A stretch of DNA of 11,402 nt from Candidatus Methylomirabilota bacterium (GTDB taxonomy: Bacteria > Methylomirabilota > Methylomirabilia > Methylomirabilales > Methylomirabilaceae). The position numbers were made by a program, and so were the translations under genes. Under the pieces are notes generated by a model. The model made no database searches. It had not been told where the DNA came from and saw nothing but the letters and a program-made list of their open reading frames with translations. The stretch spans positions 1 to 11,402 of the forward strand of contig PQAQ01000270.1 in NCBI GenBank assembly GCA_003105305.1, given 5' to 3'. Of this stretch, positions 1 to 11,402 are shown in pieces (the first letter of the stretch is position 1; each line of letters begins with the position of its first letter).

Positions 1-789
1 CCGCAGGCTGTGCCCTAAATGGCGAAATTCTTCCTTGGTGAAGGGGATAAAGCCCCAATTGTCCGACCACGCATCCTCAAAGATCTCTTGAAGAATCCGG
101 AGTTCTTCGTTCATGCGTGACCTACGCATCGACCTGATCCTGACCCGGTCGGCGGCTTTTTTTACAGCGGCCTGCATGAGCGCGGGAGGCATGAAGTCGG
201 TCGCAATCCGATAGGCCAACAGATCTTTCGATCGCTGATACCCCTCGGCTGTGATGCGATCGGCGTAGTAGGGGCGGGCGTGGCCCATCATAATCATTGG
301 AGGGGTATCGTATCCCTCTACGAGCAGCCCACACTCCTGATTGATCGAGAGATTGAAGGGACCACGGATGCGCGACATCCCTTGGTTGCGCAGCCAGGTC
401 TCCGCCGTACCCAGCAATGCGTGAAACGTCTCTGCCTCGTCCTCGGCCTCGAGTAACCCGAAGAATCCAGTCATATCCTGATACCGCGTCTGATGTAATT
501 CGTCAATTTGGGCGCTGATCCGTCCGACCGGCCTCGTGCCGCGGTACGCGAGCCAGAAGCAACACCGTGCATGCGTAAAATACGGGTTGCGCCGAGAGAA
601 CTGCTCCCGTCGCTCGATCAGCAGGGGAGGGATCCACGCCGGGTCATCGGCATAGAACGACGACGGAAGACGTATAAACCGGCGGAGATCGCGCGATCCA
701 TTGATCGGCACGATGCGAACGGATTCGGGAGTTGCGCCGACAGTAGGGGGTAGTTCTCCAGGGAGAGCTGCGGAGTTCCGATCGGACAC
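1..789 (-). CDS. bcerS: GNAT-superfamily N-acyltransferase, probable bacterial ceramide synthase (3' end beyond window)
   Basis: The minus-strand frame stays open from about 928 to the left edge; 263 codons from the chosen GTG at 789 are visible and the C-terminus is missing. The protein begins with a variable tail, then an arginine-rich block (RDLRRFIRLP, residues 33-42), a YADDPAWIPPL block (46-56), GFFGLLE (108-114), RGPFNLSINQECGLLVEGYD (142-161) and a PPMIMMGHARPYY block (163-175). I recognise this layout from the large GNAT-fold acyltransferases often annotated as N-acetyltransferase or 'dATP pyrophosphohydrolase', the group that contains Caulobacter bCerS (CC_1154). That enzyme N-acylates the sphingoid base in the cytoplasm or at the inner membrane. 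The divergent aasR-cerR-acpR-spt cluster strongly favours the ceramide role. There is no ATG before residue 106; GTG at 789 lacks a good ribosome site, and GTG at 711 is the alternative start. The family call is firm; the exact substrate is inferred. Confidence 0.72.
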   Translation of the reverse strand, partial: MSDRNSAALPGELPPTVGATPESVRIVPINGSRDLRRFIRLPSSFYADDPAWIPPLLIERREQFSRRNPYFTHARCCFWLAYRGTRPVGRISAQIDELHQTRYQDMTGFFGLLEAEDEAETFHALLGTAETWLRNQGMSRIRGPFNLSINQECGLLVEGYDTPPMIMMGHARPYYADRITAEGYQRSKDLLAYRIATDFMPPALMQAAVKKAADRVRIRSMRRSRMNEELRILQEIFEDAWSDNWGFIPFTKEEFRHLGHSLR

Positions 790-857
790 TATGTCACCCG
801 CGACGGAGTCGTATTTTCGACTGTCAGCAACGCGTAGAGTCTCCCTGCGTTTTTTTG

Positions 858-887
858 TTGCACAAAACCCCTCAGTTCTTGTATAAG
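858..887 (+). promoter_or_regulatory. Possible sigma70-type promoter for the ceramide operon
   Basis: TTGCAC (858-863) lies 18 nt before TATAAG (882-887). The -10 matches the consensus at five of six positions, but the -35 only at its TTG. If used, the aasR transcript would carry an untranslated leader of roughly 400 nt that includes the inverted repeats at 1105-1232. This is a weak call, because no other evidence fixes the start site. Confidence 0.3.
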
Positions 888-1157
888 ATACCGGGCTATC
901 ATATTGGTGTGACAGCGGTAGGTGATGTTAGTGCCCCTTGAATCTCACTATTATGCACGTTTGCCGGTTGCGTTCAATATGTTATGCGCGCGTTGCAGGC
1001 GGGGTCGTCTTGAGTGCTGCAGCGTGCCGCATCATCGGCTAGAAGTATTACAATGATTATCTGCTATCGACCTCGATGTGTTAACAGATGATCAGGGGAC
1101 TTGCAGCGGAGTGATCTGCCGCTTGTCGCATTCTGTGTGGCGCTCGGTTTGGGATCC

Positions 1158-1193
1158 AGCCGCTCACAGTAGTTGCGAAGACGTTGAGCGGCT
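1158..1193 (+). promoter_or_regulatory. Perfect 9-bp inverted repeat in the aasR leader
   Basis: AGCCGCTCA (1158-1166) and TGAGCGGCT (1185-1193) are exact reverse complements separated by 18 nt. It could be an RNA stem-loop or a protein-binding dyad about 100 bp upstream of the first ceramide gene. No T run follows, so it does not look like a simple terminator. It is flanked by shorter dyads at 1105-1123 and 1207-1232. Confidence 0.4.
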
Positions 1194-1290
1194 CTGTTCC
1201 TCTGTGGCCGGTACGGACAGGACCTTACCGGCGCTCAGGGTTCGAGTCGTTCGGTAACGGCGTTTCGTATACAAGGGGGGTGTAGGGGGG

Positions 1291-3117
1291 ATGATAACAG
1301 GACCGACGCCGACTGAGAACTCCTTGTCGCTTCGAGCCGGTGGCTTTTCCACGCTGGCCGAGGCGCTGGACTACGCAGCCGGGGGAGAGACTGGATGTAA
1401 TTTTTATGGGGACCGTGGTGAACTGTACGCAAGCCTGCCGTACACCGAACTTCGGGAGCAGGCACGATTGCTCGCGCGGCGTCTGACGGGTCTTCAGCTC
1501 GAACGGGGCGCTCGAGTCGCCATCGTTGCGGATACCGGTCCGGATTTTCATCGCTTCTTCTTTGCATGTCAGTACGCAGGCTTGGTGCCTGTTCCGCTGT
1601 CGGCTTCGCTTCTGATCAGCGGCCGCAAGCGATACGTGACCCAGCTCCGGGCGCTTCTCGCCCACTGCCGGCCGTCGGTTGCGATGGCGCCACCTGAGTT
1701 CTTCCCATTCTTGAGCGAGGCTGCCGATGGTCTCGATCTAGTTCATATCGGGACACCGGAGACCTTTGATTGCCTGCCCGAAACCCAGGAGAGAACGGAG
1801 CCCCTGCGTCCAACCGAGACGGCCTACCTTCAATACACCTCGGGAAGTACCCGGTTTCCTCGCGGGGTGATGATTGCGCAGACGGCGGTCCTTGCCAATC
1901 TTGAGGGGATCCTTCAGCAGGGTCTCCAGATTGGGCCCGGTGATCGTGCGGTATCCTGGTTACCTTTTTATCACGATATGGGGCTTGTGGGGTTCGTGCT
2001 TGCGCCGATGGTATGCCAGGTTTCCGTCGACTATTTGAAAACCCAATCGTTTGCTATGCGACCCCGGTTGTGGCTGTCGCTCATGACGCAGACGAAGGCG
2101 ACGATCTCATTCAGCCCGTCCTTCGGATATGAAATGTGCGTAAGGCGTCTCAGGCAGGATGAGGCCGACAGGTTCGACCTCAGCGCGTGGAGAGCCGCCG
2201 GGGTTGGCGCAGAAACTATTCGGCCCGGCGTACTCAAGGAGTTTGCTGACGCGCTGGCGCCGAGTGGGTTTAAACCGAGTGCCTTTGTGGCCTGTTATGG
2301 TATGGCGGAGGCCTCCCTTGCCGTCAGTTTTGCGCCAATAGATAAAGGTATTGTCATTGATCGGGTAGACCGGAGCCTCTTGGCCAAGTGTGGAGTGGCA
2401 TCCCCTCTCAGCGAGTGTGAGCTGGGATCGGACTCGGACAAGACGAGCGTCAGCCGGTTTGTCAACTGCGGGGTTCCTCTCTCCGGTATTGAAATTGAGA
2501 TACGAAACGAGCAGGGGCTTGTGTTGCCGGACCGGCACGCTGGAGTGATTTTCGTGCGGGGCGCCAATATGACGTCCGGATATTTCGATGATCCAGAGAA
2601 AACCCGAAAGGTGCTGTCTCCGGACGGGTGGCTCGACACGGGAGATCTGGGATACCTTGTAGAGGGTAGTCTCATTATCATAGGCCGCAAGAAAGATGTC
2701 ATTATTGTCCACGGTCGAAATATCTGGCCTCAGGATTTGGAGCACCTCGCCGAGGAGTTACCGGAGGTCAGACCCGGTGACGCCTGTGCGTTCTCAATAG
2801 AGAGGCCTGATCGGACTGAGATGGCCGTCATGGTTGTCCACTGCCGGGAGTTGGATCCCGCTAAACAGGCCGATTTCATCTATCGGTTGCAAGGGCTGAT
2901 CCGCGAGTATTTTGCGCTCGACTGTTTTGTCGAACTCGTTCCACCCCGCACCCTGCCCCGCACGTCCTCCGGGAAACTGTCCCGCTCAAAAACCCGGGAA
3001 GAATTTTTGACCCGAAACGATACCGCCCGACTCTTTCATGGCCGGAACGGATCCGATCACGATCGTCTTCCGCAGCCCGACCAGCAAGCGGACTCATGCG
3101 CGGCGTCGTCGCGCTGA
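1291..3117 (+). CDS. aasR: FAAL-type fatty acyl-AMP ligase / acyl-ACP synthetase for sphingolipid synthesis
   Basis: This is a 608-residue cytoplasmic member of the ANL adenylate-forming superfamily. It activates a fatty acid with ATP to acyl-AMP and should pass it to the phosphopantetheine of the ACP encoded 0.9 kb downstream. Visible core motifs in order are the P-loop YTSGSTRFPRG (182-192), WLPFYHDMGL (223-232, characteristic of fatty-acyl-AMP ligases such as FadD32), YGMAEAS (336-342), DTGDLGY (449-455), the GRKKDVIIVHGRNIWP hinge region (465-480) and PRTSSGKLSR (556-565), which carries the expected catalytic lysine K562. The length fits the family. The ATG at 1291 follows a G-rich run (AAGGGGGG, 1273-1280). 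The last 22 bases overlap the next gene, so the final residues (about 580-608) form a non-conserved tail. A generic FadD-like ligase is less likely given the neighbouring acpR and spt, which match the Caulobacter AasR setting. Confidence 0.85.
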   Translation: MITGPTPTENSLSLRAGGFSTLAEALDYAAGGETGCNFYGDRGELYASLPYTELREQARLLARRLTGLQLERGARVAIVADTGPDFHRFFFACQYAGLVPVPLSASLLISGRKRYVTQLRALLAHCRPSVAMAPPEFFPFLSEAADGLDLVHIGTPETFDCLPETQERTEPLRPTETAYLQYTSGSTRFPRGVMIAQTAVLANLEGILQQGLQIGPGDRAVSWLPFYHDMGLVGFVLAPMVCQVSVDYLKTQSFAMRPRLWLSLMTQTKATISFSPSFGYEMCVRRLRQDEADRFDLSAWRAAGVGAETIRPGVLKEFADALAPSGFKPSAFVACYGMAEASLAVSFAPIDKGIVIDRVDRSLLAKCGVASPLSECELGSDSDKTSVSRFVNCGVPLSGIEIEIRNEQGLVLPDRHAGVIFVRGANMTSGYFDDPEKTRKVLSPDGWLDTGDLGYLVEGSLIIIGRKKDVIIVHGRNIWPQDLEHLAEELPEVRPGDACAFSIERPDRTEMAVMVVHCRELDPAKQADFIYRLQGLIREYFALDCFVELVPPRTLPRTSSGKLSRSKTREEFLTRNDTARLFHGRNGSDHDRLPQPDQQADSCAASSR

Positions 3118-4031
3118 CGGGGGCGACCGGGTTCATTGGAAGCGCCCTAGCTCGAAGGCTGATACAGGAAGGATGGTGGGTACGCGCGCTTCATCGTTCA
3201 CCATCCCCGCCGTCACATCTGACTGGCCTCTCACTGGAATGGGTACGGGGGACACTGGGGGATCGCGACTGCCTGGAGGGCTTAGTCGGCGATGCGGATG
3301 TTGTCATCCATTGCGCGGGGGTTCTGCGCGGCATCACTGACGCAGATTTTTATCCGGCCAATGTCGAAGCGGTCTCACGTCTGGCCTCAATCGCCGCCGG
3401 CCGCAGCCCAGCGCCCCGGTTTCTGCTCATGTCGTCTCTCGCAGCTCGCGAACCTGAGTTGTCACCTTACGCTGCCAGCAAACGGATGGGGGAGGTCGCA
3501 CTCTCAAAAGTCTCAGATCGGCTTTCGTGGACCGCGCTTCGCCCACCCGCGGTCTATGGTCCAGGAGACCGCGAGTTGCTTCCCTTATTGCGCCTGATGC
3601 TGCACGGGATTGCGCCCATACCCGGTTGTAAAGATGCGCGGTTCTCCATGCTCTATGTGGAGGATCTGGCGGAGGCAACGGTGAAATGGCTTACCGGCGA
3701 GATTCGAGAGAAGCGTGCGTTCGAGTTGGATGATGGACACCCGCAGGGATACACGTGGTATGAGGTTGTTGAGACCTTTGAACGGATCAGAGGAAGGCGG
3801 GTTGTACATTGCCGGATTCCGGAGTCGATCTTGAATCTGACGGCCCGGCTTAACAAGATGGCGGCTTCCGTGATAGGATATTCCCCTATGCTGACCCAGG
3901 GAAAGGTGCGAGAACTCAGACACCCTGACTGGGTCTGCGATAATGGCCCGTTTCGCCGCGTTGTGGACTGGACGCCGAAGGTGCGTCTGGAAGAGGGTCT
4001 GCGGCGGACACTTGGCGTAACACTTAACTAG
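3096..4031 (+). CDS. cerR: Extended SDR NAD(P)-dependent reductase, probable ceramide reductase
   Basis: This 311-residue extended short-chain dehydrogenase/epimerase has the Rossmann nucleotide-binding motif TGATGFIG (8-15), a catalytic serine region LLMSSLA (110-116) and the YAASK active-site pair (Y125, K129), followed by the RPPAVYGPGD block (149-158). The family includes sugar epimerases, but here the gene lies between an acyl-ACP synthetase and an ACP/serine palmitoyltransferase pair. In Caulobacter the equivalent protein, CerR, reduces the 3-keto group during ceramide formation, apparently after N-acylation. The ATG at 3096 lies only seven residues before the glycine motif, so no shorter start is possible. 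It overlaps the aasR end by 22 bp without a clear ribosome site, which suggests translational coupling. The fold is certain; the substrate is inferred from context. Confidence 0.8.
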   Translation: MRGVVALTGATGFIGSALARRLIQEGWWVRALHRSPSPPSHLTGLSLEWVRGTLGDRDCLEGLVGDADVVIHCAGVLRGITDADFYPANVEAVSRLASIAAGRSPAPRFLLMSSLAAREPELSPYAASKRMGEVALSKVSDRLSWTALRPPAVYGPGDRELLPLLRLMLHGIAPIPGCKDARFSMLYVEDLAEATVKWLTGEIREKRAFELDDGHPQGYTWYEVVETFERIRGRRVVHCRIPESILNLTARLNKMAASVIGYSPMLTQGKVRELRHPDWVCDNGPFRRVVDWTPKVRLEEGLRRTLGVTLN

Positions 4032-4049
4032 AACGTCATACCTCACAAG

Positions 4050-4298
4050 ATGGCTCTTTACGACACGATATTGCCACGGCTCTATGAGATTTTGAAACCG
4101 TTTGCGCAGGAGGGGCAGACTCTTTCTGACGAGACGGAACTCGTGGCCGATCTCGATCTCGATTCTATGAAGGTCATGGAGATCCTGCTCGAGGTGGAGG
4201 AACGGTTCGATATCTCCATTCCGTTAAACGTCATACCGGATGTGCGGACCATCAGAGATTTTGCCCGCCAGATTGAACAACTTACGGAGCAGAAGTGA
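4050..4298 (+). CDS. acpR: Dedicated acyl carrier protein for serine palmitoyltransferase
   Basis: This 82-residue acidic protein has the four-helix acyl-carrier layout. The phosphopantetheine attachment serine is S39 in DLDLDSMKVMEILLEVEE (34-51), followed by the VRTIRDFARQI helix. It should be converted to holo form by a phosphopantetheinyl transferase encoded elsewhere, be loaded by AasR, and deliver the acyl chain to Spt. In Sphingomonas and Caulobacter such an ACP is encoded beside spt. The residue after the serine is Met, not the Leu usual in housekeeping AcpP, consistent with a specialised carrier. It starts 18 bp after cerR, and its last four bases overlap the spt start codon. No strong ribosome site is visible before the ATG. 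Confidence 0.85.
   Translation: MALYDTILPRLYEILKPFAQEGQTLSDETELVADLDLDSMKVMEILLEVEERFDISIPLNVIPDVRTIRDFARQIEQLTEQK
4286..4289 (+). promoter_or_regulatory. Ribosome binding site of spt
   Basis: GGAG lies inside the end of acpR, five bases before the GTG start of spt. It supports the GTG at 4295 as the start and fits a GTGA stop/start overlap that couples translation of the two genes. Confidence 0.55.
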
Positions 4299-5518
4299 CG
4301 GATCTGCTGGAAAAGTTTCGACCACTTGCGGAAGCCCGCGAGGCGTTGACGCAATCGAGCCAAGATCCCTTTCGGGTCATCATCGAACGAATCCTGTCGC
4401 CGACCGAGGCCATCGTGAACGGCCATCCAATGATTCTGGCCGGAACCAACAACTACCTTGGTCTGACGTTCGATCCGCAATGCATACAAGCGGCGGTCCA
4501 GGCGGTGCAGGAGCAAGGCACAGGCACAACGGGATCCAGAATGGCCAACGGCAGCTTCAGCGGGCACCTCGCGTTGGAGCACGAGCTGGCGGAATTTTTT
4601 GGGCGCCGGTGGTGCAATGTGTTCTCGACCGGCTACCAGGCAAATCTGGGCGTGATAGCGGCGCTAACCGGCCAGGGGGATGTGATCCTGATCGACGCCG
4701 ATTGTCATGCGAGTATTTATGACGGATGCCGGATGAGCGGGGCGGAGGTCATTCGATTCCGCCACAACGATGTTGCCGACCTCTGTAAGCGTCTCGCACG
4801 TCTGGGGAAGCGATGCGCCAACACGCTCATCATTGTTGAAGGTCTCTACAGCATGTTCGGCGACCGCGCGGCGCTGCGGGAGATCGCCATCACAAAACGG
4901 GAATACGGCGCCTACCTGCTTGTTGATGAGGCCCACTCGCTTGGGGTGCTGGGGGAACGTGGCCGCGGGCTGGCAGAGGAGGCCGGCGTTGAAGATAGTG
5001 TCGATTTTGTCGTCGGAACCTTCAGTAAGAGTCTGGGCGCCATCGGCGGCTACTGTGTCTCGGATCATCCTGAGGTAGACTTGGCGCGGTATGTCAGCCG
5101 TCCGTATATTTTCACCGCCTCGCCATGTCCATCAATCGTTGCGTCTACGCGCGCCGCCTTGCAGAAGCTCCGGACTGAGCCGGCGCTACGCGTGCGTCTC
5201 TGGGATAACGCGCGGCGGTTGTACGACGAGTTGAAGGGACTGGGATTCAGGTTGGGTCCAGAACCCAGTCCGATTATCGCAGCTCGGCTCGGCCAGAAGG
5301 ACGAGACGATCGCCTTCTGGAACGGACTCCTTGATCAAGGTGTCTACGTCAATATGATCTTGCCGCCGGCCGCGCCGGACGGAAGCAGCCTGCTCCGATG
5401 CAGCGTGAGCGCAGCGCACACGCCAGACCAGATTAACCGGATTTGTCGAGCCTTTGCGTCCGTTAAGGCGGCTCTCTCCTCCGACCTCACCGACTGCCAT
5501 GGCGCGATTCGTTCGTAG
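4295..5518 (+). CDS. spt: Serine palmitoyltransferase (alpha-oxoamine synthase family)
   Basis: This 407-residue PLP enzyme condenses L-serine with an acyl thioester, probably acyl-AcpR, giving 3-ketosphinganine and CO2, the first committed step of sphingolipid synthesis. Visible features are GTNNYLGL (50-57), the glycine-rich GTGTTGSRMANGSFSGH stretch (75-91), H138 in DADCHAS, which should stack on the PLP ring, VEGLYSMFGD (181-190), D211 and H214 in VDEAHSLGVLG, the Schiff-base lysine K245 in GTFSKSLGAIGG, and R368 in SLLRCSVSAAHT, matching the arginine essential in bacterial SPTs. It has no membrane anchor, like other soluble bacterial SPTs. Paralogues BioF, Kbl and HemA share the fold. 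The adjacent ACP, acyl-ACP synthetase and reductase, together with the DEAHSLG form of the motif, favour SPT. It starts with GTG, overlaps acpR by 4 bp and closes the ceramide operon. Confidence 0.87.
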   Translation: MTDLLEKFRPLAEAREALTQSSQDPFRVIIERILSPTEAIVNGHPMILAGTNNYLGLTFDPQCIQAAVQAVQEQGTGTTGSRMANGSFSGHLALEHELAEFFGRRWCNVFSTGYQANLGVIAALTGQGDVILIDADCHASIYDGCRMSGAEVIRFRHNDVADLCKRLARLGKRCANTLIIVEGLYSMFGDRAALREIAITKREYGAYLLVDEAHSLGVLGERGRGLAEEAGVEDSVDFVVGTFSKSLGAIGGYCVSDHPEVDLARYVSRPYIFTASPCPSIVASTRAALQKLRTEPALRVRLWDNARRLYDELKGLGFRLGPEPSPIIAARLGQKDETIAFWNGLLDQGVYVNMILPPAAPDGSSLLRCSVSAAHTPDQINRICRAFASVKAALSSDLTDCHGAIRS

Positions 5519-5686: not shown

Positions 5687-6547
5687 GTGGCAGATAAGTA
5701 CGCAAAGGCTGTGCCTGTCCTGGTGTATCACAGCATAAATCATTGCCCTGGGCGGTGGACTGTCTCGCCCGCGAATTTCGAAGCCCACATGCGGTACCTT
5801 GTGCACAGCGGCTACACTACGCTCCACGCCGACGAGTTTGCGGCCTTCATCGAAGGAAAGACAGCGCTTCCTCAAAAAAGCGTGCTCATCACCTTTGATG
5901 ACGGGTACCTCGACAACTATGTATACGCCTTCCCTGTTTTGGAGCGACTGAGTTTGCACGTGGTCATTTTTGCGGTCACGGGATGGGTCGGCGAAGGTCC
6001 GACGCGGCCGCATGCCGGGATGGGCAAATCCGAGACGTTGCCGGAGTGCCTCGACCAGCGCGCCAGTGAGAAGGCTATCACCGAGGGGTGTGCCGATGCG
6101 TTCGTGCTGCGGTGGTCGGAGATCAAAGCCATGGAGGCCAGCGGCGTGGCGGAGATCCATTCCCATACCCACGGCCACACCCGCTGGCGTCGGCAGTATC
6201 CGGAAACACGCGTACGGGTTGCCCGCCTTGAAGAAGATTTAGCCCAATCCCGCGCAGTGCTGCGCGAGCATCTTGGGCGCGACAGCAGCCATTTGTGCTG
6301 GCCCTTTGGATATTACGAAACGAGGTTTGTAGAAGCTGCAGGGGAAGCCGGCTTTTCGGTGCTCTACAGTATGCACCGTGGCGTCTGTACGCCGCGAACA
6401 AAGCCTGCCTGCGTACCGCGCATCGAGATCAAGGACGTGGATGTCCCCTCGTTCGCGCGACAATTATGGATCTACTCCCGCTCCTGGATCAACCCCGTAA
6501 TTCGCGTGCGCGATAAGTACTTTTATAGGCACCTTTTCCGAGGCTAA
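5687..6547 (+). CDS. Polysaccharide deacetylase family protein (NodB fold)
   Basis: This 286-residue carbohydrate esterase family 4-like protein has PVLVYHSI near the N-terminus (10-17), the metal-site motif TFDDGYLDNY (69-78, D71 and D72), the second motif HSHTHGH (158-164, H158 and H162 as likely metal ligands) and a third motif WPFGYY (205-210). Such enzymes remove N-acetyl groups from amino sugars. There is no signal peptide, so it probably acts in the cytoplasm on a nucleotide-, lipid-linked or lipid-attached sugar. A segment between the first two motifs (about 100-140) looks like an insertion relative to minimal NodB domains, and the C-terminal tail (about 257-286) is rich in aromatic and basic residues. 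The GTG start at 5687 follows a weak GAGAAG; no ATG is close. The gene precedes the Stealth gene by 36 bp, suggesting joint expression. The substrate is unknown. Confidence 0.8.
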   Translation: MADKYAKAVPVLVYHSINHCPGRWTVSPANFEAHMRYLVHSGYTTLHADEFAAFIEGKTALPQKSVLITFDDGYLDNYVYAFPVLERLSLHVVIFAVTGWVGEGPTRPHAGMGKSETLPECLDQRASEKAITEGCADAFVLRWSEIKAMEASGVAEIHSHTHGHTRWRRQYPETRVRVARLEEDLAQSRAVLREHLGRDSSHLCWPFGYYETRFVEAAGEAGFSVLYSMHRGVCTPRTKPACVPRIEIKDVDVPSFARQLWIYSRSWINPVIRVRDKYFYRHLFRG

Positions 6548-6583: not shown

Positions 6584-7642
6584 ATGCTAAACGATATAGA
6601 TTTGGTGTACTTATGGGTGGACTCAACGGAACCAGCATGGCAAGCCAAAAAAATTGAAGCGCTGAAAACGCTTGGTCAGTATACCCCGGCTCCGTTTGCC
6701 GCCAGATTTAGAAATCATGACGAGCTGAAATTCAGCTTGCGCAGCGTCGAAAAGCACGCACCATTTATCCGAAATATATACATTATTACGAACGATCAGC
6801 GGCCGGCCTGGCTGAATTCCGGAGCCAGAAATTTATTTGTTATTGATCATAAAGATATCTTCCCGGATAGCAGTTGTCTGCCGTGCTTTTCTTCCAATGC
6901 CATTGAGACCGTCATGCATAGGATTGGCGGATTATGCGAGTTTTTTCTCTATGCGAATGACGACATGTTCTTTCTTAATGATGTGACCGTCACGGACTTC
7001 ATTCTAGAGAGCGGGAAGATGCGAGTAGGTTTCAAGACGAACCTTGTCTATATTCCCAGCAATCCGGAGCACGATCCGTTTTCTGAGCAGTTCGTGAATA
7101 GCTGTCGCCTAATGGAAACGGAGTTGGGGAACTTCTTTAAACCTCGCATCAATCTCAAGCAGTGGATACGACTTCGACCTTTTCGGAAGAATGTGTATCC
7201 CTGGAATTATCCAAATCATCAGATTCAGATTCATTCCAAATCGATTGCCCATGAAATACACGAGAGGTTTCCGCGAGAGGTGTCTGCTGCAATGCATGAG
7301 AGGTTCCGATCACCACAGAGCATCGACGTCGCCGGCTTGCTGCTGTATTACGCGATTTATAAGGGTGCTGCTGTGCCTGTCTTCGATCACAACTGGATGA
7401 TGATATCTAAGAAGGGAAACACGGGCCGCCTGCCCAGGAAATCAAGCAATCTGATCAACACCCCGCCATCCCGCCGCCCGAAGTTTTTATGTCTCAATGA
7501 CTGCGAATACAATGAGCACTTCGACTGGGGATCCTATATCACGCATTTGCTGGAGCGTCTATTTCCGGAACCCAGCCGTTTTGAGAAGATGAGTGCCACA
7601 GATCGAGATCTTCATCATCGAGAAGCGATCGCGCACGGTTAA
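6584..7642 (+). CDS. Stealth-family sugar-phosphate transferase
   Basis: This 352-residue protein has the conserved regions of Stealth proteins: CR1 IDLVYLWVDSTEPAW (5-19); CR2 from NHDELKFSLRSVEKHAPFI (44-62) through IYIITNDQRPAWL (65-77) and FFLYANDDMFFLND (120-133); a CR3-like block around NHQIQIHSKSIAHEI (211-225); and a C-terminal CR4-like CLNDCEYNEHF (303-313). Relatives include GlcNAc-1-phosphotransferase and capsule hexose-phosphate transferases, which move a sugar-1-phosphate from a nucleotide sugar to an acceptor and form a phosphodiester. The asparagine/aspartate cluster NDDMF is likely to bind metal and nucleotide. A CAGGGGG site eight bases before ATG 6584 supports the start; an ATG at 6580 opens only another frame. 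The first 180 bases I counted are about 47% GC, lower than the neighbours look, which hints at separate ancestry. The acceptor is unknown; capsule, lipid-linked glycan and ceramide headgroup are all possible. Confidence 0.82.
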   Translation: MLNDIDLVYLWVDSTEPAWQAKKIEALKTLGQYTPAPFAARFRNHDELKFSLRSVEKHAPFIRNIYIITNDQRPAWLNSGARNLFVIDHKDIFPDSSCLPCFSSNAIETVMHRIGGLCEFFLYANDDMFFLNDVTVTDFILESGKMRVGFKTNLVYIPSNPEHDPFSEQFVNSCRLMETELGNFFKPRINLKQWIRLRPFRKNVYPWNYPNHQIQIHSKSIAHEIHERFPREVSAAMHERFRSPQSIDVAGLLLYYAIYKGAAVPVFDHNWMMISKKGNTGRLPRKSSNLINTPPSRRPKFLCLNDCEYNEHFDWGSYITHLLERLFPEPSRFEKMSATDRDLHHREAIAHG

Positions 7643-7740: not shown

Positions 7741-9495
7741 ATGCGGTTTCTGATTACTATCATCCGAATGTATCCCCAACGAAGCGTGCTTACGCTGATC
7801 TCTCTGCTGCTTGCGAGTGTCGCGGAGGGGGTGGGACTCCTTGTTCTGCTGCCGTTGCTCAGCGTAGCGACGGGTGAGCACATTCAGGGAATCGGCACTC
7901 ACTTGTCCGGAGCGCAGTGGGTCCTGACGCAAGCGCTGGGAGCGGTCGGACTCATCCCGACTGTCGGCACGCTGCTGATTGTTATTGTCCTTTGTGTGGC
8001 AGTCAAGGCGGTATTTCTCGTGTTGGCGAAAACTCAAGCTGGGTATACCGTCACGCATGTCGCCACCGATCTGCGACTCTCCCTTATCCGTACCCTGCTG
8101 GCTGCCCGGTGGGAGTATTATGTACGCCAACCTGTGGGGAGCCTGGCCAATACGGTGGGGACTGAAGCCATGCGAGCGTCCATGGCTTTCATGGAGGGCG
8201 CCAACGCCGCCGCTCTATTTACCGAAGCCCTCGTCTATGCCGGCGTGGCCTTCGTCGTTGCGCGAGAGGCGATGCTGGCATTTCTGATTCCTGGAATACT
8301 GATCCTCTTCGGACTCAACTATCTTGTTCGCATGGCGCATCGGGCTGGAAACCGTCAGACTAAACTCATGAAGTCCCTGCTGGCCGACTTAACGGACAGC
8401 CTTCAGTCCATTAAACCGCTGAAGGCTATGGCGCGAGAAGAGTTGATAGGTCCGTCCCTCCAGTCCAGTACTCAACGACTGAACCGGGCGTTTCAACAAG
8501 ATGTGCTGAGTGCGGAGGCGCTGAGCTCCTCTCAGGAGCTCGCGTTGACGATCGTCATCGTGATCGGGTTATACATGGCTCTGAGCCGGTGGAAGCTGTC
8601 GCTCAGCGTCGTGATGGTGATGGTTCTTGTTCTCGCGCGCGTGCTGACCTGCCTCGCCAAAATGCAGCGGCGATATCAGAAATTACGAACGCTGGACAGC
8701 GCCTTCTGGTCGTTGCAAGCTGCGATTGACGGTGCGAACCGCGACCGTGAAACGGAGCCGGGGGGCCTCCCGCCGAGCCTCAAGAACTCTCTCCGCCTGG
8801 ACACGGTCAGCTTCGGGTATGGCAAACACCGTGTACTGCGGAACGTATCGCTGGCTGTGCCGGTCGGATCATTTACGGTGATCATAGGGCCATCGGGGGC
8901 CGGAAAAACGACGATCGCCGATCTGTTTACGGGTCTGTTGCGTCCGCAACACGGCAGTGTCTGGATTGACGATGTGCTATTGGATGATGTTGATCTGAGG
9001 CAGTGGCGACGAATGATCGGGTATGTGCCGCAAGAGCCTTTTCTCCTTCACGATACGGTGCTGCAGAATGTGACGCTTGGCGATCCGGAACTGAACGAGG
9101 CCGATGCTGAGGCGGCGCTGCGCGCCGCCGGCGCCTGGGATTTTATAACGAAGCGGTCCTCCGGGATCCATAGTTCGGTCGGCGAGCGTGGAACAGCATT
9201 ATCGGGAGGTCAGCGGCAACGCATCGCCATCGCCAGGGCGTTGGTGCATCAACCTAAGCTGTTGATCCTGGACGAGGTCACCAGCGCGCTCGATGCCGAG
9301 AATACGGCCGCCATTTGTCAAACCCTACGAGACCTTCGCGGTCGGTTGACCATTGTGGCTATCTCACATCAGCCTGCTGTGGTAGAGAATGGTGACTGGG
9401 TCTATCGGATACACAACGGTGAGGCGGTGTTGGTTACCACCGGCTGTGATTCCGAAGTCGTCCTTGGGCAGCCGGCGGGGCAATCTCAGGGGTAG
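7741..9495 (+). CDS. ABC exporter with fused membrane and ATPase domains (PglK/MsbA-like)
   Basis: This 584-residue half-transporter should work as a homodimer in the inner membrane. The N-terminal part has hydrophobic segments at about 15-43, 66-97, 157-195 and 268-303, including a SVAEGVGLLVLLPLL stretch (26-40) like that of PglK-type flippases of lipid-linked oligosaccharides. The ATPase domain begins near 350, with Walker A GPSGAGKTT (383-391), Q-loop Q431, signature LSGGQRQR (487-494), Walker B LLILDE (507-512) and H-loop H543. All catalytic residues are present. The family exports or flips lipids, glycolipids or peptides. The neighbouring deacetylase, Stealth and ceramide genes make a glycolipid or sphingolipid cargo the most attractive guess. 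It follows the Stealth gene by 98 bp with no clear ribosome site, so the start is uncertain; the next in-frame ATG is codon 10. It ends before a new promoter. Confidence 0.85.
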   Translation: MRFLITIIRMYPQRSVLTLISLLLASVAEGVGLLVLLPLLSVATGEHIQGIGTHLSGAQWVLTQALGAVGLIPTVGTLLIVIVLCVAVKAVFLVLAKTQAGYTVTHVATDLRLSLIRTLLAARWEYYVRQPVGSLANTVGTEAMRASMAFMEGANAAALFTEALVYAGVAFVVAREAMLAFLIPGILILFGLNYLVRMAHRAGNRQTKLMKSLLADLTDSLQSIKPLKAMAREELIGPSLQSSTQRLNRAFQQDVLSAEALSSSQELALTIVIVIGLYMALSRWKLSLSVVMVMVLVLARVLTCLAKMQRRYQKLRTLDSAFWSLQAAIDGANRDRETEPGGLPPSLKNSLRLDTVSFGYGKHRVLRNVSLAVPVGSFTVIIGPSGAGKTTIADLFTGLLRPQHGSVWIDDVLLDDVDLRQWRRMIGYVPQEPFLLHDTVLQNVTLGDPELNEADAEAALRAAGAWDFITKRSSGIHSSVGERGTALSGGQRQRIAIARALVHQPKLLILDEVTSALDAENTAAICQTLRDLRGRLTIVAISHQPAVVENGDWVYRIHNGEAVLVTTGCDSEVVLGQPAGQSQG

Positions 9496-9563: not shown

Positions 9564-9750
9564 TGACTCTCGTTTATCTAGCCATCCCACGATGTGATCA
9601 GTGTCCTGGCGCCAGCGAAAGCGTCTCCCGTATTCCAGAGGCGGCACGTCGGCGCACGATGACTATTCGCGTTCACTCACACGATAGGCGTTTTTAACGG
9701 ATCCATTCGTGAAGGTGAGCCGTCACGCGTATCAATAATGACTTACGGAT

Positions 9751-9756
9751 GGGAGG
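9751..9756 (+). promoter_or_regulatory. Ribosome binding site that sets the desaturase start
   Basis: GGGAGG ends directly before a TTG at 9757 and six bases before a second in-frame TTG at 9763. Normal spacing therefore selects 9763. No ATG occurs in this frame near the N-terminus. Confidence 0.6.
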
Positions 9757-9762
9757 TTGACT

Positions 9763-10914
9763 TTGTACGACGATAAGACAGGGATTCCTACGGTTGTCGG
9801 GCAGGGGCCGGCATCATCGGCTACTACAAGACAGGGCCTGCGACCCTTCTCACGTTCTGACGCGAAGAAACTCGTCCACGATCTGCTCGCGCCCAAGCCT
9901 GCAGTGTATTGGATAGACTTGCTGATTACGATTTTCATCGGATACGGTTGCGCCGCGTTGTATGCCACGGCCCCCGCGTTTTCACCGCTGCAGATCGTGG
10001 CATTTCTGGTGGCCGGACCGGCACTGTTCAGGGCTGGGATCTTCATCCATGAGATTGTGCATAGGGAGGAAGACTCCATGGCGGGATTTCGTATCGCCTG
10101 GAATCTTTTCGTTGGGACGCCCCTGCTGATGCATTCGCTCCTGTACAGAAATCATCTCGACCATCACCATCCTCGTAAGTTTGGTACGCCGGCCGACGGA
10201 GAGTATCTGCCATTAGGATCGGCTCCCGTCCGAGAAACCCTGCTGTATCTTGCGCAGGTTCCCGTGTTGCCGCCCTTGACGATCTTTCGTTTTCTTGTCC
10301 TGGTGCCGCTGTCGTTTCTTCATCCCCGGTTGCGGCGATGGGTCCTGGAACGGTGGTCCTCCTATATCATCAATCCCTACTACCGGCGTGTTGTTCCATC
10401 AACGGAACCCCAGGGGGCCTGGATGGTATGGGATCTACTCGGCTTTCTGTGGGTGGTTGTCGTGATCGCGTTGCTGTACGTCGGATGGATCACATGGACC
10501 ACGATCGGACTCCTTTATTGCCTGGTGGTCTATACGATTGGCCTGAACTGGGTCAGAAATCTTGTGGCGCACCGCTACATCAATCCAGGAAGGAGGATGA
10601 CGTACGAGGAGCAGGTCGAGGACTCCCTGACGATTGCGGAACGGTCGCTCTTGACGTTGATCTTGTTTCCCGTTGGACTGCAGTTCCACACGTTGCATCA
10701 CGCATTCCCGTTGATGCCGTATCATTCTATGGCAGAGGCCCATCGTCGTTTAATGGAGGGATTACCTGAGGACTCGGTCTACAGGAGCACGGTCATGCCA
10801 AGCTATTGGACTGCGATCCGCGAACTCCTGCGAGGGGAGCAACTGGCAAGTAAGGCCGGCTCCAATCCGATGCAGGCATGGCGCCATCCGGAAACGGCCT
10901 CGTATGCGCGATAA
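9763..10914 (+). CDS. Membrane fatty acid desaturase/hydroxylase family di-iron protein
   Basis: This 383-residue integral membrane protein has the three histidine boxes of the fatty acid desaturase family: HEIVH (96-100), HLDHHH (131-136, usual form HxxHH) and HTLHH (309-313), with an extra histidine in NLVAHRY (266-272). Hydrophobic segments flank the boxes (about 49-70, 77-92 and 222-264). Such enzymes use two irons and O2 to introduce a double bond or hydroxyl into a lipid chain; carotene-modifying relatives share the motifs. Start choice: TTG 9763 has GGGAGG six bases upstream; TTG 9757 would add two residues but leaves no spacing. It follows its own promoter, and its end overlaps the next gene by 11 bp. 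The position beside a ceramide locus suggests that a sphingoid base or amide-linked acyl chain could be the substrate. This is inference; a phospholipid fatty acid is equally allowed by the sequence. Confidence 0.8.
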   Translation: MYDDKTGIPTVVGQGPASSATTRQGLRPFSRSDAKKLVHDLLAPKPAVYWIDLLITIFIGYGCAALYATAPAFSPLQIVAFLVAGPALFRAGIFIHEIVHREEDSMAGFRIAWNLFVGTPLLMHSLLYRNHLDHHHPRKFGTPADGEYLPLGSAPVRETLLYLAQVPVLPPLTIFRFLVLVPLSFLHPRLRRWVLERWSSYIINPYYRRVVPSTEPQGAWMVWDLLGFLWVVVVIALLYVGWITWTTIGLLYCLVVYTIGLNWVRNLVAHRYINPGRRMTYEEQVEDSLTIAERSLLTLILFPVGLQFHTLHHAFPLMPYHSMAEAHRRLMEGLPEDSVYRSTVMPSYWTAIRELLRGEQLASKAGSNPMQAWRHPETASYAR

Positions 10915-11402
10915 ACCGAGAGCGCGGCTGGTACGCGCCTCAGATGACACGCTGTTGCAACGTTACAGCAGCGTGAACTCCTATCTCATCGGTCTTGGAC
11001 TTGCCTTTCTGGTATTGCTGCTGTGGAGTGGGGATGTCCATGCCGGGGGGGAGGCGGCCGGGCGGGGGTGCGACAGCAACTCCACTGCGATCGAGGTTCG
11101 GGTGCACGGTGTCAGGAACGATCATGGAAAGATTATCTTCGTCCTGTATGGCGATAATCCAGCCGATTTTCTTGCAAAAGGCAAGACAATCATAAAGCAA
11201 CACGCTCCGGCAACGCATGGAACGGTCGCATTCTGCGTAAGTATACCGCAGACAGGCTCATACGCCGCCGCCGTGTATCACGATGAAAACGACAATGGAA
11301 AATTTGATCGGAACTGGATAGGGTTGCCTGGCGAAGGCGGCGGCTTCTCAAATAATCCTAAAACATTCTTGGGCCCTCCGAGCTATGCACAAGCGGCATT
11401 TC
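10904..11402 (+). CDS. DUF2141 domain protein with N-terminal membrane/signal segment (3' end beyond window)
   Basis: This frame is open from ATG 10904 to the right edge, with 166 codons visible. After a basic 26-residue N-terminus comes a hydrophobic stretch, SYLIGLGLAFLVLLLW (26-41), ending in DVHAGG, which could be a signal peptidase site after VHA (44-46). The rest (about 62-166) matches DUF2141: a VRNDHGKIIFVLY strand pair (70-82), an acidic YHDENDNGKFD loop (125-135) and the closing GFSNN (147-151) and GPPSY (157-161) motifs. The domain is predicted to be a secreted beta-sandwich; its function is unknown to me. The start overlaps the desaturase end by 11 bp, implying coupled translation. 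A GTG at 10973 would give a more ordinary signal peptide and is a real alternative start. Little beyond the recognised domain should be missing. Confidence 0.78.
   Translation, partial: MRDKPRARLVRASDDTLLQRYSSVNSYLIGLGLAFLVLLLWSGDVHAGGEAAGRGCDSNSTAIEVRVHGVRNDHGKIIFVLYGDNPADFLAKGKTIIKQHAPATHGTVAFCVSIPQTGSYAAAVYHDENDNGKFDRNWIGLPGEGGGFSNNPKTFLGPPSYAQAAF

Follow-up and report, generated by a model that had tools for sequence, protein, structure and literature searches.

A predicted ceramide-backbone locus of a Candidatus Methylomirabilis-genus bacterium, with a Stealth-family phosphotransferase gene beside it

The stretch of DNA analyzed here (the window; 11,402 nucleotides, positions 1 to 11,402 of contig PQAQ01000270.1, assembly GCA_003105305.1) carries genes for a bacterial ceramide synthase (bCerS), a fatty acyl-AMP/ACP ligase (FAAL), an SDR reductase, an acyl carrier protein (ACP), and a serine palmitoyltransferase (Spt), and very probably represents the locus for the ceramide backbone in a bacterium of the genus Candidatus Methylomirabilis (NC10), with a Caulobacter-like pathway. 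The genes form two divergent units (Table 1), with bCerS on the minus strand and FAAL through DUF2141 on the plus strand; the FAAL and SDR genes overlap by 22 bases and the ACP and Spt genes by 4 bases, as expected of an operon. The original prediction had described a complete five-gene ceramide pathway at positions 1..5518. All five genes do lie together there, but the set is not complete in the window, as bCerS runs off the contig, and the locus does not end at Spt: genes on the same strand (deacetylase, Stealth, ABC, desaturase, and DUF2141) continue to the right edge. The key residues that had been named for FAAL, SDR, ACP, and Spt are all correct by translation, whereas the claim that they are intact in every enzyme goes too far for bCerS, of which roughly the second GNAT domain is outside the window.

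Table 1. Features of the window, with coordinates in the 11,402-nucleotide stretch.
Feature	Coordinates	Strand	Remarks
bCerS (bacterial ceramide synthase, tandem GNAT N-acyltransferase)	1..789	-	3' part cut by contig edge; 263 of ~396 aa
AasR-like fatty acyl-AMP/ACP ligase (FAAL)	1291..3117	+	608 aa; catalytic Lys K562; NF006624 762.5 bits, cut-off 600
CerR-like extended SDR reductase	3096..4031	+	311 aa; Y125-x3-K129
AcpR, dedicated acyl carrier protein	4050..4298	+	82 aa; phosphopantetheine Ser S39
Spt, serine palmitoyltransferase	4295..5518	+	407 aa; K245/H138/R368; NF047599 634.7 bits, cut-off 500
PgaB-like polysaccharide N-deacetylase	5687..6547	+	TFDDGY and HSHTHGH in sequence
Stealth-family phosphotransferase, proposed head-group transferase	6584..7642	+	CR1-CR4 above Pfam cut-offs
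ABC exporter, MsbA/HepA-like kind, candidate sphingolipid flippase	7741..9495	+	
DAGK (CpgB-like lipid kinase) 3'-end relic	9677..9776	+	Between ABC and desaturase genes, reaching slightly into desaturase start
Fatty acid desaturase/hydroxylase-family membrane enzyme	9757..10914	+	Three His boxes: 98 HEIVH, 133 HLDHHH, 311 HTLHH
DUF2141 protein	10904..11402	+	Open at contig edge

Spt scores above the cut-off of the NCBIfam serine palmitoyltransferase model and aligns with the solved serine palmitoyltransferase 2x8u, and its ten best matches in the PDB are all serine palmitoyltransferases. The models for BioF and glycine C-acetyltransferase also match, at 338.5 and 308.2 bits, as could suit a BioF/Kbl paralogue in an operon for biotin or threonine metabolism; however, both scores are below cut-off (426 for BioF), as is that for HemA, and the host genome holds a separate BioF above its cut-off (440.9 vs. 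426.45). In a tree rooted on BioF, the Spts and the BioFs of the genus fall apart, and the window Spt is placed among the Spts. Clustering with bioF/kbl, which the original prediction had named as a finding that would speak against it, is thus not seen, and the paralogue explanation, which we rejected, can practically be discounted. It is also improbable that this Spt-like alpha-oxoamine synthase, with its ACP and FAAL, condenses an amino acid other than serine (e.g., alanine, giving 1-deoxyceramides) to make a sphingolipid analog: Spt can use alanine, and other amino acids have been hypothesized, according to the available text of PMC11334938, but the model score and the PDB matches both point to serine, and the gene set equals that of clusters predicted, in the accessible part of the published account, to make CPG2.

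The other backbone genes are consistent with this assignment. The alignment of the FAAL with the solved structure 3pbk, also a FAAL, extends through the C-terminal Lys stretch, the SDR carries the YxxxK motif and stands within the operon, and AcpR, with its phosphopantetheine Ser, adjoins spt. Identification of the SDR as HpnA or OleD was rejected, these being its best NCBIfam matches at 77.5 and 68.9 bits vs. cut-offs of 367.65 and 580. The nucleotide-binding motif of the window SDR begins near residue 8, so that a signal peptide would have little space; CerR has been placed in the periplasm of Caulobacter, in the available text of PMC11087976. The bCerS open reading frame is open at the contig edge, and because ten full-length copies in the genus have 380–413 residues, roughly the second GNAT domain is missing from the window. 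The part present is 87% identical over residues 1–263 to the full-length bCerS of a relative (locus L108), which folds as a tandem GNAT. An alignment spanning these 263 residues is also obtained with the proteins at the bCerS position in Azotobacter vinelandii (L080) and Pseudomonas luteola (L063), two loci with the same gene order. The original prediction had also allowed that the GNAT protein might cluster away from bCerS; in a tree of 36 bCerS-position proteins, with no control GNATs of different function, it is placed with those of its genus. Of the 14 other genus genomes, 10 have a bCerS match that covers most or all of the protein; a search for solved relatives by sequence gave nothing beyond a chance-level match (E 0.015). 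A public protein (P0001) that is 100% identical over 93% of the bCerS of genome G021 carries the label Kofleriaceae in one source, which is probably a taxonomic error.

The host assembly (G000) is a 2.1-Mb draft, 80% complete, of the genus Candidatus Methylomirabilis, and named relatives with 80–90% identical Spt (L009–L011) are Candidatus Methylomirabilis or Methylomirabilota metagenome-assembled genomes (MAGs). Methylomirabilis couples methane oxidation to nitrite reduction; a PmoA match is present in 10 of the 15 genus genomes and none was found in the host draft (80% complete), so that the identity of the host as a methanotroph rests on its genus. The 11 of these 15 genomes that encode Spt (80% or more) are also those that encode bCerS. 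Three of the four genomes lacking both (G023, G027, and G028) form a clade that is also without a PmoA match, and in the fourth (G031) PmoA is present and Spt was not found. A second LptF (LptF2; 80% or more) is encoded in 10 of the 11 Spt-positive genomes and is absent from the four Spt-negative ones. An internal TAA is reported in the Spt match of G032, which is taken to overrun the gene end because an open frame of 396 residues is seen there. Replacement of lipopolysaccharide by sphingolipids is not supported, LpxC being found in 15/15 genus genomes.

The backbone genes of L009, L010, L011, and G025 (L110) are 71–93% identical to those of the window. In a wider set of 80 loci fetched by their Spt, many of them cut by contig ends, all five genes are matched together in 43 and FAAL, SDR, ACP, and Spt in 65, which argues that the grouping is more than chance. 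In loci of other families of the same order (L120–L124), bCerS-like, Spt, and SDR genes lie side by side, and the fetched stretches gave no match to FAAL or ACP; the Spts of L120 and L123 match the Bacteroidetes-type SPT model best, below cut-off (554 and 566 vs. 640). Two class-level relatives (L118 and L119) each have an Spt-like protein that passes the SPT cut-off (at 532 and 517 bits) and a FAAL match nearby (36–38%), with no bCerS match within the fetched stretch.

In gene content the window resembles the Caulobacter crescentus cluster CC_1168–CC_1152, which, as described in the available text of PMC11324152, has aasR-cerR-acpR-spt plus cerS in another unit. The same description gives that cluster a second LptF/LptG, nucleotidyltransferases, a lipid kinase, and a CDP-alcohol transferase nearby, as in sister species of the host. 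Compared with Caulobacter by description only, the host differs in having no detected kinase, CDP-alcohol transferase, or CC_1153-like gene, with Stealth instead, and in having an ABC exporter downstream of Spt. Ceramide/CPG2 clusters of A. vinelandii and P. luteola are also reported in the part of PMC11324152 that was available, and the backbone pathway is of this known kind; the less ordinary part of the locus is its head-group side. The order in L080 and L063 is LptG-LptF-NTP-NTP-bCerS / FAAL-SDR-ACP-Spt-ABC (NTP, nucleotidyltransferase), and identity to the window is 61–64% for Spt, 48–50% for bCerS, and 51–52% for ABC; unlike the window, neither shows a match to Stealth, the deacetylase, or the desaturase in the flanks that were fetched. 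Five of the seven genus genomes with the kinase (G021, G022, G024, G025, and G026) have this order too, except for inserts before ABC.

From these genes we infer a pathway in which AasR would load a fatty acid onto AcpR and Spt would condense acyl-AcpR with serine to 3-oxo-sphinganine, the product of the backbone pathway being dihydroceramide. The desaturase may modify a chain, and the lipid would then receive a head group, be flipped by the ABC exporter, and be carried outward by a dedicated second LptFG pair. At the level of genes, there is good support for the original prediction of a bacterial route to ceramide in this organism.

It is in the head-group genes that the genus divides. Genes are here called CpgA-like (CDP-OH_P domain; CDPOH), CpgB-like (DAGK_cat; DAGK), CpgD-like, and CC_1153-like (NTP_transf) from Pfam domains, position, and published descriptions of the Caulobacter proteins. 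According to the available text of three papers, CpgB phosphorylates ceramide, and the domain of CC_1159 (CpgA) suggests a CDP-alcohol reaction (PMC11324152; PMC10331486; PMC12275187). Genes for CDPOH, DAGK, and the CC_1153-like protein, at (near) full length, are each encoded in exactly G021, G022, G024, G025, G026, G033, and G034; among these is G025, a Methylomirabilis relative that, unlike the host, carries the kinase/CDP-alcohol version. Within the genus, Stealth is encoded in exactly G000, G029, G030, and G032, all four copies being near Spt. In G021, G022, G024, G025, and G026 the right side reads ABC-CDPOH-DAGK-desaturase in a row, and in G033 and G034 CDPOH follows ABC, DAGK is on another contig, and the left side is different. 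The CDPOH match of G022, within which a TGA is reported, is taken to overrun the gene end, since an open frame of 406 residues is seen there.

No match to the kinase, the CDP-alcohol transferase, or the CC_1153-like gene was found in the host draft (80% complete). The interval between ABC and desaturase, where the kinase and the CDP-alcohol transferase are sited in sister species, lies fully in the window and holds only a relic of the kinase: local DNA alignment scores 56–80 against the DAGK tails of four relatives, compared with 38 or less in 1000 single-base shuffles, and detects no relic of the CDPOH head in the window. The same gap of G032 retains both a DAGK tail (84–122; 1000 single-base shuffles, 42 or less) and a scrap of the CDPOH head (62–98; shuffles, 36 or less). 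The DAGK tail may have survived because it overlaps the desaturase start. As G030 and G032 are listed as 99% complete, vs. 80–83% for G000 and G029, the lack of head-group genes is firmer in the former two.

The Stealth protein has CR1–CR4 in common with the sugar-1-phosphate transferases CpsY (8j2n) and GNPTAB (7s6n), and its alignment with CpsY covers the DELK and NDDMFF stretches. It differs from them in its place beside ceramide genes and in belonging to a distinct small subfamily, of which 10 clusters share 67–100% identity, all others among the 120 listed being at 37% or less. A search of the phylum gave only one match outside the genus (G069, 33%), and at E 1e-3 there was none in the fetched flanks of the other 79 of the 80 Spt loci, the sole match being L011, itself from NC10, in which Stealth directly follows Spt without the deacetylase. 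A PgaB-like deacetylase is full-length only in the host among the 15 genus genomes, with partial or weak matches (31–36%) in three others.

Stealth proteins make sugar phosphodiesters from nucleotide sugars, so that a single Stealth enzyme could replace a kinase and a CDP-alcohol transferase together. We tentatively suggest, on sequence grounds, that a Stealth route replaced the kinase/CDP-alcohol route to the head group in part of the genus. It is possible, rather than probable, that in the host lineage Stealth uses a nucleotide sugar to place hexose- or hexosamine-1-phosphate directly on the 1-hydroxyl of ceramide (or on a ceramide-linked sugar), so that ceramide kinase, CDP-alcohol transferase, and the CC_1153-like enzyme would no longer be needed; the deacetylase would perhaps then expose an amine, to give a ceramide-phospho-hexosamine at an exchangeable head-group site. 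Stealth proteins and PgaB-like deacetylases are, however, mostly known from capsules and exopolysaccharides. The names CpsY and PgaB among the matches, and the glycosyltransferases, sulfotransferase, or NeuB cassette that other genus members have at the same site, suit a surface polysaccharide locus (Stealth, deacetylase, and ABC) that merely adjoins the ceramide operon and is unrelated to lipid head groups. This has a substantial chance of being correct, if somewhat below even, but it leaves aside that Stealth is exactly complementary over 11 genomes to three lipid head-group genes, of which the CC_1153-like gene is on the other side of the core, and that it is a discrete subfamily whose four genus copies all lie near Spt.

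Ignoring descent, such complementarity would arise by chance once in 330. The Stealth genomes are interleaved in the core tree, with G000 by G021 (support 87), G029 by G024/G025 (100), G030 by G022/G033/G034 (100), and G032 poorly placed (55). On both trees, the Stealth/kinase label requires four parsimony changes, a number also required by 192 and 176 of the 330 possible labelings; four independent head-group swaps were therefore rejected as a conclusion, and the count shows no more than a lack of clustering among the Stealth genomes. In the desaturase tree the two copies available from such genomes fall together, whereas in the ABC tree the three do not all do so. Compared with independent swaps, it is equally possible that one deletion spread by exchange or that the polymorphism is an old one.

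Several points weigh against the reading of the locus as a whole, with its Stealth head-group route. The bCerS of the window is truncated; SDR, ACP, and ABC match general families only; LptF2 was not seen in G000 (80% complete, with the left flank outside the contig); and the assignment is made from genes. The CpgA-, CpgB-, CpgD-, and CC_1153-like labels were set by Pfam and position, and not by comparison with Caulobacter sequences, and genome-wide absences in G000 are soft at 80% completeness. The mutual exclusivity may reflect allelic replacement at one locus and not repeated functional substitution, and the kinase deletion may have a single origin, because the two desaturases available from Stealth genomes share a clade. 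A CpgD-like nucleotidyltransferase variant (46–54% identical to the M. oxyfera-type) adjoins bCerS in the three Stealth genomes in which the left flank is seen, so CDP-activated precursors may persist there, and surface-sugar genes of several kinds occupy the same spot in sister species.

The genus is a natural experiment, in which sister species share a backbone operon and have mutually exclusive head-group genes, and this contrast makes a role of Stealth in lipid rather than capsule chemistry directly testable; if the Stealth reading holds, the locus, with head-group genes exchanged at a site flanked by conserved genes for the backbone and for transport, would be a sphingolipid counterpart of the O-antigen locus. 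No report of NC10 sphingolipids was found in the literature, judged by title and the start of the abstract, the 38-phylum list of PMC11334938 lying outside that check; for that study, which gives 1271 MAGs with Spt-like proteins from 38 phyla, the main text names neither Methylomirabilota nor NC10. Judged by title, no literature was found that joins a Stealth phosphotransferase with bacterial ceramide. The locus possibly extends the known range of sphingolipid producers, and sphingolipids in the Methylomirabilis envelope, if present, would be a lipid class without a report found for these organisms and a possible biomarker.

Among the remaining downstream genes, the ABC exporter, a candidate sphingolipid flippase, reaches the cut-off of none of the 25 NCBIfam models shown. 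Many relatives likewise have an ABC gene after Spt, within 2.5 kb in 37 of the 69 loci with enough sequence. The desaturase, a candidate modifier (desaturase or hydroxylase) of the ceramide chain, is kept after the head-group genes in the genus and is near spt in four non-NC10 loci (L028, L059, L071, and L073; 44–48%); no solved relatives were found by sequence. The DUF2141 gene also follows the desaturase in relatives.

Other genes are found around the core in individual genomes. Upstream of bCerS, two Stealth genomes (L114 and L115) have several glycosyltransferase genes of GT2/GT4 kind, vs. LptFG and nucleotidyltransferases in sister species, and LptF2 lies further out. A 389-residue protein (c29; L108 15201–16370) that matches nothing in Pfam at E 0.001 or in NCBIfam at E 1e-60 is found repeatedly next to spt clusters, at 54–86% identity (L113, L183, L184, L025, L032, L066, L067, and L068). 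A sulfotransferase directly follows Spt in G021 (L108 11364–12293), which suggests a sulfated sphingolipid. A NeuB cassette of nonulosonic-acid type is found directly after Spt in 3 of the 11 genus genomes (L111 9711–17686, L112 11261–19411, and L117 1–8699; domains scanned in L111 only), and a sialic-acid-like sphingolipid head group is possible. NeuB of the same kind (64–67% identical) is encoded about 2–4 kb after Spt in seven non-NC10 loci (L017, L018, L020, L027, L037, L040, and L046), with a shorter match in L055 and more distant ones in L029 and L084.

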